Source of the DNA: an uncultured Spirochaetota bacterium
GTDB lineage: Bacteria; Spirochaetota; Spirochaetia; JAFGXN01
Assembly: GCA_944388995.1 (NCBI GenBank)
Contig: CALXKN010000002.1
Coordinates: 62,001-126,000, forward strand
Length of the DNA: 64,000 bases
Reading direction: 5' to 3'
Part shown: one piece after another, positions 43,048 through 49,476 of the stretch
Position numbering within the stretch: the first letter of the stretch is position 1
Layout of the letters: each line of letters begins with the position of its first letter
Translations under genes and position numbers: made by a program
Notes under the pieces: generated by a model
Databases searched by the model: none
Seen by the model: only the letters and a program-made list of their open reading frames with translations
Told to the model about the DNA's origin: nothing

Positions 43048-44529
43048 ATGAAGACGATTGCCGTTATTGACTGTTTGAAGAATAACCGATTCTCCCGGGA
43101 GCCGCTGTTCGGCGGACATTCAGCCGAGCGGCTGTGTGCGGAGGCAGTTGTGTCGGCGTTCCGTTCGGGAAAGATTGACGGCGATGTCGTCCGGCTGTCG
43201 GAAACTCCGGAAGCGGCCGGCGGAATCCGGACGGTTGCCGTTTCGGCTGCCGACGCAGGCGGTTATTTTGAGGCGTTGACAAAGATCACCGAAGGGTACG
43301 ATGTTGCGCTTCGTATTTGCGGTGATGCGCCGTTTATTAACCCTGATCTGATACTCGAAACCATCAAAGAACACACCGAAACTGCCGCCGACTTCACTTA
43401 CGGCGAAGGCTTTCCTCTCGGACTGTGTCCCGAAGCGGTTGAAACCGATCTGCTGCCGGTTCTGGCGGAGCTTAACCGGAATGCGCCGCCGCCGCACCGT
43501 TCGCTCTTTCCGTATTTCGAAAAACAGATTAACGATTACGATATTGCCGTTGTCATTGCGCCGCAGGACAGCCGGCGGCTGCGCCTGTCGCTGTTTGCCG
43601 ACTCGTTCCGCCGGCTGTCGCTTCTGACCCGTTTGGCGGAAGCCTCAAACGGCGCTGTGACGCCTTCTTTTATCGCTGAAAACGAAAAACTCCTGCTGAT
43701 GCCGCCGGCTTTTTACCCCATACAGATTGTCGACGCCCGCGTGCAGACGCCGATATACGTACCGCAGGCGTTGTCAGCTGAAGCCGGAAGCGGAGCGGAA
43801 ATGAGCGTTGAGTCGCTGCGTCTGCTGCTGCGCCGCGCCGGAGAGGCGAGCGGTTCGTTCGTCGTTTCCCTGTCGATGAACTGCGATCCCGTCTGTCACA
43901 GCCGTTTTTTTGACGCGGCCCGGGCGGCGCTGGAGTCGGAAGCGTCGGCGGTTTTGGTTGAGACGGCCGGGCTGCGCTGGAATGCGGCGGAAGCCGAGGC
44001 GTTGACGGCCGCCGCCGCCGGACGGCTGATTTGGATTGTCACGCTGGATGCGGGAACCGAAGAGGATTACCGGAAACTGCGCGGCGAAGGTTTTGAAGAG
44101 GCAAGCGCTTTTGCCGGGCGCATGGTCGCCGCTTTCCCCGAATCGGTTTACGTTCAGGCAGTCCGGCTGAAGGGATACGAATCGGCAGCGGACGCCTTTT
44201 ACCGCGTTTGGAAGCCGAAAACCGACCGCCTGATTATCCAAAAACACGACTCGTTTTGCGGGCTGGTGCCTGAAATGAAGGCTGTCGACCTGTCTCCGCT
44301 GAAACGATTCCCGTGTCATCACCTCAAACGTGAACTGCCGATTCTTTCCGACGGAACGGTTCCGATGTGTTCGGAAGATCTTGCCCGCACCGTCCGGCGC
44401 GGCAACGCGCTGACGGACGATTGGCAGACGCTGTTCGCCTCTGTCCGCCGGCAGTACGAAGAGCAGGTTGACGGCATTTACAACGGAATTTGCGGAGGAT
44501 GCGATGAGTACTATACATTCAATTTCTGA
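43048..44529 (+). CDS. spiro-SPASM-type protein: nucleotidyltransferase-like domain plus SPASM domain
   Basis: About 493 residues from the ATG at 43048; an upstream frame to 42886 has poor composition. Residues 1-190 resemble SpsF/CMP-KDO-type nucleotidyltransferases (VALRICGDAPFINPDLI). Residues about 220-400 look like a radical-SAM barrel (WIVTLDAGTEEDYRKLRG), but where CxxxCxxC should be the sequence reads R-V-Q-T-P-I-Y-V-P. The end is a clear SPASM domain (FPCHHLKRELPILSDGTVPMC ... GICGGCDEYY). It resembles a family named spiro-SPASM that I recall only from spirochaetes. It probably handles a nucleotide sugar or forms an Fe-S scaffold. It overlaps the next gene by 26 bp and heads a run of sugar-modification genes. 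Confidence 0.75.
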   Translation: MKTIAVIDCLKNNRFSREPLFGGHSAERLCAEAVVSAFRSGKIDGDVVRLSETPEAAGGIRTVAVSAADAGGYFEALTKITEGYDVALRICGDAPFINPDLILETIKEHTETAADFTYGEGFPLGLCPEAVETDLLPVLAELNRNAPPPHRSLFPYFEKQINDYDIAVVIAPQDSRRLRLSLFADSFRRLSLLTRLAEASNGAVTPSFIAENEKLLLMPPAFYPIQIVDARVQTPIYVPQALSAEAGSGAEMSVESLRLLLRRAGEASGSFVVSLSMNCDPVCHSRFFDAARAALESEASAVLVETAGLRWNAAEAEALTAAAAGRLIWIVTLDAGTEEDYRKLRGEGFEEASAFAGRMVAAFPESVYVQAVRLKGYESAADAFYRVWKPKTDRLIIQKHDSFCGLVPEMKAVDLSPLKRFPCHHLKRELPILSDGTVPMCSEDLARTVRRGNALTDDWQTLFASVRRQYEEQVDGIYNGICGGCDEYYTFNF

Positions 44530-47831: not shown

Positions 47832-49476
47832 TATTTTCCCTCTTGCGGAAGAGCGGATACGGGTTCCGTCTGAAAAGAAAACCGTATTGATTCTCGGCTG
47901 CGGTCTTTTGCAGCGCCCGGCGATTGAAACCGCCGCCGCATTCGGTTGGACGGTCGTCGGCTTTGACGGCAATCCGAATGCTGAAGCGGCCTCTCTCTGT
48001 GATCAATTCGAAACGGTCGACATCAGCGATACCGAAGCGGTTGTTTCCGCCGCTCAGACCATTGCCGAACGGCTGCCGATCGACGGAGTTTTCACTGCTG
48101 GTACTGATTTTTCGTACAGCGTTGCCGTTACTGCTGAACGGCTCGGTCTGCCGGGACTTCCTCCGACGGTTGCTTTTCGCGCTTCCCACAAAGATGCCAT
48201 GCGCGAATGTTTTTTGCAAAACGGAGTCTCTTCGCCGGCATTTGTGACGGCGGCTTCTCCCGCACAAAGTAGTGAAGCGCGGAAGCTGCCGTTGCCGCTG
48301 GTTGTCAAGCCGGTTGACAACATGGGCGGCCGCGGAACCGTCCGCATCGATCGTTATGAAGATCTGTCGGCAGCGGTCGAAGAAGCACTGAAATTTTCTC
48401 GAACAAAAACCGCTGTTATTGAAGAGTTTATCGACGGTCCCGAATTCAGCTTAGACGGAATCGTGCAAAACGGAAAACTGATCGTTACCGGGTTCGCCGA
48501 TCGAATCATTTGCTTTCCGCCGTATTTTATCGAAACCGGACACACCATGCCGACAGCTGCCTCTGCCGAAATTCGCTCCGCCGTGATTGCTGAATTCGAA
48601 AAAGCGGTCGCTGCTCTGGGTATTCGCGACGGCGCAGCCAAAGGAGACATTAAATACTCTCCGTCGCGGAAAAAAGCTGTCGTCGGAGAGGTGGCGGCGC
48701 GGCTTTCGGGTGGTTTTATGTCGGGATGGACCTACCCTTATGCATCGGGAATCAACGTTACCGCTGCGGCGCTGCGGGTGGCTGTCGGATTGCCTGCTGC
48801 GTTGCCGCGCACCGAAAAACGGCGAGTCTCCGCCGAGCGGGCGTTTTTATCGGTTCCTGGTGAAGTTGTTTGCGTGGAGGGGCTTTGCTATGCGATGAAA
48901 ATTCGCGGTGTCAGGCACGTGTTTTTACGCGTCAAATCAGGCGGCCGCGTTCGGTTTCCTCGGAATAATGTCGAAAAGTGCGGTAACGTTATTTCCGTTT
49001 CCCGCAGCCGCCGCAAAGCGGTGTGCGCCGCTGAAAAAGCCGCTGAAACGATTTTTGTTCGACTCAAACCGGGCGACCCCGAAACGGAAGCGTATCTGAT
49101 TTACGGAAAAGGCGTTTTTGCGCCGCGTTTTACTCTCCGTAAAGCTCCTGCATATCAATTTTTTTACAAAAAAAGAGAAGAAAATTTTTCCGACCTCTTG
49201 ATTTCATTCAGTCAAGAGCCGTTATTCATAGAAGAAAAGGATGATGCGGCATTCCGCGGCGGATTGAAACGTCTGAAACGGATGCGCATTTTTGCGGGGG
49301 AGAAAAAGGCAAACCTGATTCTAGGGGAACTGTTTTACCGCGTTTATTTGCGCGGCGGCGTGCAGGGAGCCGTTTGGCTGGCGGATACCGTCAGACATTT
49401 TTTTAAACTGGGGATATTGGATGAAGTGTTGGAGAAGTGGCGCGGGAATTGTTTGGGCGATTCTGCTGCTGATTAA
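47806..49476 (+). CDS. ATP-grasp ligase-like protein with C-terminal extension
   Basis: About 556 residues. It opens with a pre-ATP-grasp Rossmann-like part (VLILGCGLLQRPAIETAAAFGW, VVGFDGNPNAEA) and then a full ATP-grasp fold: LVVKPVDNMGGRGT, VIEEFIDGPEFSLDG and V-G-E-V-A-A-R-L-S-G-G. These resemble PurK/CarB-type carboxylate-amine ligases, which join an acid to an amine using ATP. The last ~170 residues (after about 390) are basic and match nothing I know. A TTG at 47806 with GGGGGA five bases upstream is the likely start; an ATG at 47815 is possible. It overlaps both neighbours (26 and 56 bp). It could attach an amino acid or other amine to the pathway's sugar; this is a guess. Confidence 0.7.
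   Translation: MKCMRRKSDIFPLAEERIRVPSEKKTVLILGCGLLQRPAIETAAAFGWTVVGFDGNPNAEAASLCDQFETVDISDTEAVVSAAQTIAERLPIDGVFTAGTDFSYSVAVTAERLGLPGLPPTVAFRASHKDAMRECFLQNGVSSPAFVTAASPAQSSEARKLPLPLVVKPVDNMGGRGTVRIDRYEDLSAAVEEALKFSRTKTAVIEEFIDGPEFSLDGIVQNGKLIVTGFADRIICFPPYFIETGHTMPTAASAEIRSAVIAEFEKAVAALGIRDGAAKGDIKYSPSRKKAVVGEVAARLSGGFMSGWTYPYASGINVTAAALRVAVGLPAALPRTEKRRVSAERAFLSVPGEVVCVEGLCYAMKIRGVRHVFLRVKSGGRVRFPRNNVEKCGNVISVSRSRRKAVCAAEKAAETIFVRLKPGDPETEAYLIYGKGVFAPRFTLRKAPAYQFFYKKREENFSDLLISFSQEPLFIEEKDDAAFRGGLKRLKRMRIFAGEKKANLILGELFYRVYLRGGVQGAVWLADTVRHFFKLGILDEVLEKWRGNCLGDSAAD

Follow-up and report, generated by a model that had tools for sequence, protein, structure and literature searches.

Five overlapping genes at positions 43048-49476 of a 64,000-nucleotide stretch of DNA (the window) from an uncultured Spirochaetota bacterium very probably form the spirochaete locus that makes the sugar decorating the flagellar filament. 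The proposed product is a methylated, amide-substituted nonulosonate activated with cytidine monophosphate (CMP), which Maf-family proteins would transfer to the flagellin FlaB, with unlinked PseB- and PseC-like enzymes and the synthase NeuB also contributing. The system is a spirochaete-specific variant of flagellin nonulosonate glycosylation, in which the activities of spiro-SPASM and the gene 2 product are putative. All five genes are on the forward strand. The spiro-SPASM protein (493 amino acids, 43048-44529) was identified with TIGR04321. Gene 2 (44504-45463) has no Pfam family and was assigned by fold comparison as a putative GT-A fold glycosyltransferase. Then come an SpsF-like CMP-sugar synthetase (223 amino acids, 45460-46131; CTP_transf_3, 3.5e-27), a fusion of an SpsG/PseG-like uridine diphosphate (UDP)-sugar hydrolase with an S-adenosylmethionine (SAM) methyltransferase (SpsG-MT, 46128-47831; weak PseG match, Methyltransf_23 at 1.1e-22), and an ATP-grasp amide ligase of the L-amino-acid-ligase type (47815-49476; ATP-grasp_4 and LAL_C2).

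Conservation of the block and co-occurrence with flagellin

Ninety-eight genomes of the class were surveyed, and flagellin was found in 76 and in none of the other 22. Spiro-SPASM was present in 64 of the 76 flagellated genomes, SpsG-MT in 63, and a strong ATP-grasp match in 65, whereas all three were absent from the 22 aflagellate genomes. Strong NeuB matches (68/76 vs 1/22) and the Maf-type transferases of family PF01973 (70/76 vs 1/22) were distributed in the same way. With shared ancestry ignored, the Fisher p value for co-occurrence with flagella was <=1e-12. The genome of the window has four matches to PF01973, so the protein type associated with flagellin glycosylation is present there. 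In one family (f9), a genus without flagellin also lacked spiro-SPASM, SpsG-MT and Maf, and its sister genus had all of them. Borrelia-like genomes have flagellin and lack the block, NeuB and Maf; this name, 'Treponema pallidum-like', 'Treponema denticola-like' and similar ones are labels inferred from gene content and genome size. The preliminary description of this DNA had proposed a check for conserved co-occurrence in relatives, and the block was indeed found as a unit in many families, where it tracks flagellin, NeuB and Maf.

The nonulosonate could instead serve a surface or envelope glycan (lipopolysaccharide-like or capsule), with the flagellar link being secondary. We consider this unlikely. 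Enzymes of the SpsE, SpsF and SpsG types do serve the Bacillus spore surface (PMC7439481), and two envelope-related products, an amidase and a GerMN protein, are encoded in the same run of genes, but the absence of spiro-SPASM and SpsG-MT from every aflagellate genome, together with the same flagellate pattern for the Maf-type transferases, argues against it. In addition, the serines of the FlaB glycosylation sites are replaced in the Borrelia-like genomes, and these lack the block.

Gene order was compared across 98 spiro-SPASM loci from many spirochaete families. At each of the 67 loci with 8 kb or more of downstream sequence, the genes present followed the order spiro-SPASM, gene 2, spsF, spsG-MT, ATP-grasp, amidase, GerMN, flaA; 53 of these loci had all seven genes downstream of spiro-SPASM, and 58 had flaA downstream of the block. 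Spiro-SPASM and gene 2 overlap by exactly 26 bp in 92 of 96 loci. Because of this overlap and the invariant order, the gene neighbourhood reflects more than chance. The conserved C-terminus of spiro-SPASM reads CDEYYTFNF or CDEYYTYNF, while the other frame encodes the MNTIP start of gene 2. Therefore, the strongly conserved C-terminus of the one protein dictates the N-terminus of the other. The overlap itself (44504-44529 here; loci L036-L135) is conserved phylum-wide. As for the junctions in the window, overlaps of 26, 4 (ATGA), 4 (ATGA), 17 and 56 bp were measured with the best starts among the six genes from 43048 to 50461, in agreement with the 4-56 bp noted earlier between spiro-SPASM and the amidase gene. 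The run described as leading into amidase, GerMN, flaA and che genes was likewise borne out by family matches and gene order.

In treponemes, SpsF and SpsG-MT form one fused open frame (about 840-900 amino acids in Treponema-like genomes). In both the T. pallidum-like and the T. denticola-like genomes, the four-gene core is separate from flaA, and the ATP-grasp gene lies at another place. This dispersal would suit an ancient operon that serves no single pathway and whose genes are co-transcribed with flaA and act in separate processes. That explanation is hardly credible, since the dispersed genes are all still present in those genomes and all are jointly missing from the Borrelia-like ones. 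Even at 1.1 Mb, the T. pallidum-like genome retains the four-gene core together with NeuB, four matches to the Maf family and an ATP-grasp gene located elsewhere. At four other loci (L107, L111, L114 and L095), spiro-SPASM, gene 2 and spsF are directly followed by the amidase gene, GerMN and flaA, and both SpsG-MT and ATP-grasp are missing; this arrangement is possibly a reduced pathway.

Predicted steps of sugar synthesis and transfer

From the family assignments, we infer a pathway that would begin with UDP-N-acetylglucosamine. An unlinked PseB-like dehydratase and a PseC-like aminotransferase would convert it to a UDP-4-amino-6-deoxy sugar. Genes for both, with PseB and PseC as the best NCBIfam matches, were found side by side, away from the block, in the genome of the window and in the T. 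pallidum-like genome, and the 4,6-dehydratase family PF02719 gave a strong match in 15 of the 15 flagellated non-Borrelia genomes tested. The UDP would be released by the SpsG half of SpsG-MT (gene 4). This protein consists of a hydrolase (about residues 1-270), CxxC pairs and a methyltransferase (about 290-567). Its profile matched PseG (3hbm, 4.7e-6 over profile positions 3-220) as well as sugar methyltransferases. The GxGHxxR motif was found in 83 of 84 homologues, as expected for a UDP-sugar hydrolase; the score against the NCBIfam PseG model was 20.9 bits, under the equivalog cut-off.

Phosphoenolpyruvate would then be added by NeuB (56882-57991, reverse strand, convergent with the che genes; PF03102, 3.8e-60) to give a nine-carbon nonulosonate. 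This protein matches SpsE (1vli) over nearly its full length at 6.2e-60, which makes it a NeuB-type synthase, and it is the only full-strength NeuB in the genome of the window. The preliminary description had it acting together with the block. Its co-occurrence with flagellin supports such a role, whereas its proximity is genus-specific: NeuB adjoins the block in the genus of the window (G000 and G001) and is unlinked elsewhere, and for this reason it was rejected as a member of the conserved gene unit. A second, weak NeuB match in this genome (G000:C8:16513-17091, locus L002; 47.6 bits) was not counted, because the frame around it, about 636 amino acids long, is of a type shared by flagellated and aflagellate spirochaetes and is probably a different enzyme family.

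The ATP-grasp ligase would join a carboxylic acid to one amino group of the sugar. It scored 48.7 bits with ATP-grasp_4 (cut-off 27) and 47.9 bits with LAL_C2 (cut-off 29.4), and matched an L-amino-acid ligase structure (3vot) at 1.6e-30, consistent with an L-amino acid ligase. The methyltransferase half of gene 4 may methylate the sugar or its substituent, and the SpsF-like protein would activate the sugar with CMP. The nearest solved structure to the latter was 6oew (5e-17), with KdsB also matched, as expected for a CMP-sugar synthetase. A strict form of the SpsF motif was too narrow, recovering 22 of 92 proteins, and a looser form recovered 72 of 92. With these results, the SpsF, SpsG/PseG and NeuB/SpsE assignments made earlier from the sequence held in both the family scans and the profile matches to solved structures. 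Lastly, Maf-family transferases would place the sugar on FlaB serines (Ser115 and Ser126 here) ahead of export. The T. denticola glycan is reportedly a nonulosonate of pseudaminic configuration carrying a methoxy-trihydroxyhexanoyl amide. Such a structure would suit the combination of NeuB with a methyltransferase and an amide ligase.

The pathway resembles known systems of other bacteria. In Bacillus subtilis, SpsC, SpsE, SpsF and SpsG serve legionaminic acid synthesis or use (PMC7439481), and the sps pathway there (SpsC, D, E, F, G, M) has SpsE/NeuB, SpsF, SpsG, dehydratase and aminotransferase types in common with the set described here. It differs in that SpsG is fused here to a methyltransferase, in that spiro-SPASM, gene 2 and the ATP-grasp ligase are added, and in its target, which is the spore there and is proposed to be the flagellum here. 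The pseudaminic/legionaminic flagellin glycosylation of Campylobacter and Helicobacter with Maf shares PseB/C/G/I-like steps and Maf-type proteins with the genome of the window. In contrast to that system, the dehydratase here carries additional N-terminal sequence and falls short of the PseB cut-off, and the enzyme set and gene order are spirochaete-specific.

The spiro-SPASM protein scored 382.7 bits against TIGR04321 (cut-off 250) and belongs to that family. It consists of an N-terminal cytidylyltransferase-like domain, a middle BtrN-like radical SAM barrel and a C-terminal SPASM part, in which cysteines C423, C441, C482 and C485 are retained. Its profile matched BtrN (2.2e-11) and the cytidylyltransferase 6oew (8.8e-5) in the PDB. 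An AlphaFold model (pLDDT 89.1) matched 6oew (TMt 0.71), BtrN (TMt 0.75), anSME and SuiB in Foldseek, as expected of a radical SAM/SPASM fold. BtrN and the other SPASM/Twitch radical SAM enzymes share this fold, and they share the CxxxCxxC motif with the 77 of 98 spiro-SPASM relatives in which it is intact. They differ from spiro-SPASM by its added cytidylyltransferase-like domain and by the loss of the motif from the window protein, where RVQTPIYV stands at the site. Since CxxxCxxC is lacking, an active radical SAM enzyme was rejected for this genome; the motif is also lost in T. pallidum-like, T. denticola-like and other treponeme genomes. The N-terminal domain is probably not an active cytidylyltransferase, as the RLPGK loop was found in none of the 98 N-terminal domains in a motif survey. 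Spiro-SPASM probably descends from a radical-SAM sugar-modifying enzyme and is likely, here, a scaffold or an enzyme with the auxiliary cluster only. The fusion of a cytidylyltransferase-like domain to a BtrN-like radical SAM/SPASM domain is new here, and 'spiro-SPASM' had no match in the literature searched.

Gene 2 had no Pfam or NCBIfam family match, and an alignment of its homologues contained invariant motifs. In Foldseek, its structure model (pLDDT 86.6) was closest to the polypeptide GalNAc (N-acetylgalactosamine)-transferases of GT27 (E 5e-11, TM about 0.6). No GT27 match was obtained with its profile against the PDB, so the likeness is in fold and not in sequence family. Judging from this model, gene 2 is predicted to be a previously unannotated GT-A fold glycosyltransferase, probably a further transferase of the pathway. 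It was not taken as the sole transferase because Maf-type proteins occur in all flagellated non-Borrelia genomes sampled. A more tentative idea, which we rather doubt, is that spiro-SPASM is a new sugar-modifying enzyme whose nucleotidyltransferase-like domain holds the nucleotide-linked nonulosonate, and that gene 2 represents a new family of protein O-glycosyltransferases that modify flagellin alongside Maf or in its place. Two 'unknown' proteins become testable candidate enzymes.

FlaB as the likely acceptor

The flagella of spirochaetes are glycosylated. FlaB of T. denticola carries an O-glycan of 450.2 Da (Kurniyati et al. 2017, cited in PMC9481697 and PMC7431986) required for filament assembly and motility (PMC9481697) and is glycosylated at VEVSQL and DRIAS, both serines being substituted in Borrelia burgdorferi (PMC7431986, reporting the 2017 work). 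In Leptospira, putative glycans on flagellin have been placed where the core meets the sheath (PMC13144727). The two T. denticola sites were compared in 22 flagellins from 19 genomes (16 non-Borrelia and six Borrelia-like sequences). Serine was present at the first site in 16/16 non-Borrelia proteins and at the second in 14/16, whereas Glu and Asp occupied the two sites in all six Borrelia-like proteins. Two of the 16 non-Borrelia sequences came from G002, where the block was not found. FlaB of the window organism has VEVSQL and NRIAS, with serine at both (positions 115 and 126). Since the contrast involves one lineage, it is supportive and not proof.

The conserved block is proposed here as the gene locus of the T. 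denticola FlaB glycan. No description of the block genes as the source of that glycan was found in the literature searched, and a search on the T. pallidum gene names returned re-annotation notes only. The block would provide a specific locus for the spirochaete flagellar glycan, conserved in flagellated spirochaetes and kept in the reduced T. pallidum-like genome, and would predict the spirochaetes that bear the glycan, Borrelia not among them, and the residues that carry it.

The position of flaA as the conserved downstream neighbour raises the question of whether FlaA or other sheath proteins are modified rather than FlaB. This is quite improbable: according to a 1998 title cited in PMC13144727, the flagellins of T. 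pallidum are glycosylated and its sheath proteins are not, and in T. denticola the mapped glycosylation sites belong to FlaB. The conserved FlaB serines and this title suggest that FlaB, not FlaA, is the likely acceptor. The preliminary description had proposed an activated sugar for flagellar or surface proteins; the flagellar link was supported, and the target is refined to FlaB.

Several findings weigh against FlaB glycosylation by this pathway. The 22 aflagellate genomes represent only six families and, therefore, independent losses may be few. Two flagellated genomes (G002 and G230) have NeuB and Maf without spiro-SPASM, SpsG-MT or a strong ATP-grasp match, which could be a true loss or a missing contig. 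Controls showed that the PF01973 family extends to archaeal proteins other than flagellin transferases. In most genomes, NeuB and Maf lie apart from the block, and the flagellar gene to which the block is linked is flaA rather than flaB. The PseB and PseC matches are under their equivalog cut-offs, and the search for pathway enzymes was confined to NeuB, SpsG/PseG, CMP-sugar synthetase, dehydratase and aminotransferase.

Neighbouring genes in the window

Downstream of the ATP-grasp gene, three conserved neighbours on the forward strand precede the chemotaxis genes. These encode an N-acetylmuramoyl-L-alanine amidase with a probable signal peptide (49421-50461; Amidase_3, 2e-45, and synteny), a GerMN-domain protein (50467-50991; Germane, 1.7e-7, and synteny) and the flagellar sheath protein FlaA (51001-52119; FlaA, 7e-56). 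The candidate cheA, cheX and cheY genes of the window have homologues in another family, where their order is the same (locus L050). Between cheA and cheX, a single protein with CheW and CheR domains is encoded at 54496-55944. Far upstream, a region for sugar degradation (13987-25617), which has no relation to the block, contains GH97, LacZ-type GH2 and second GH2 genes.
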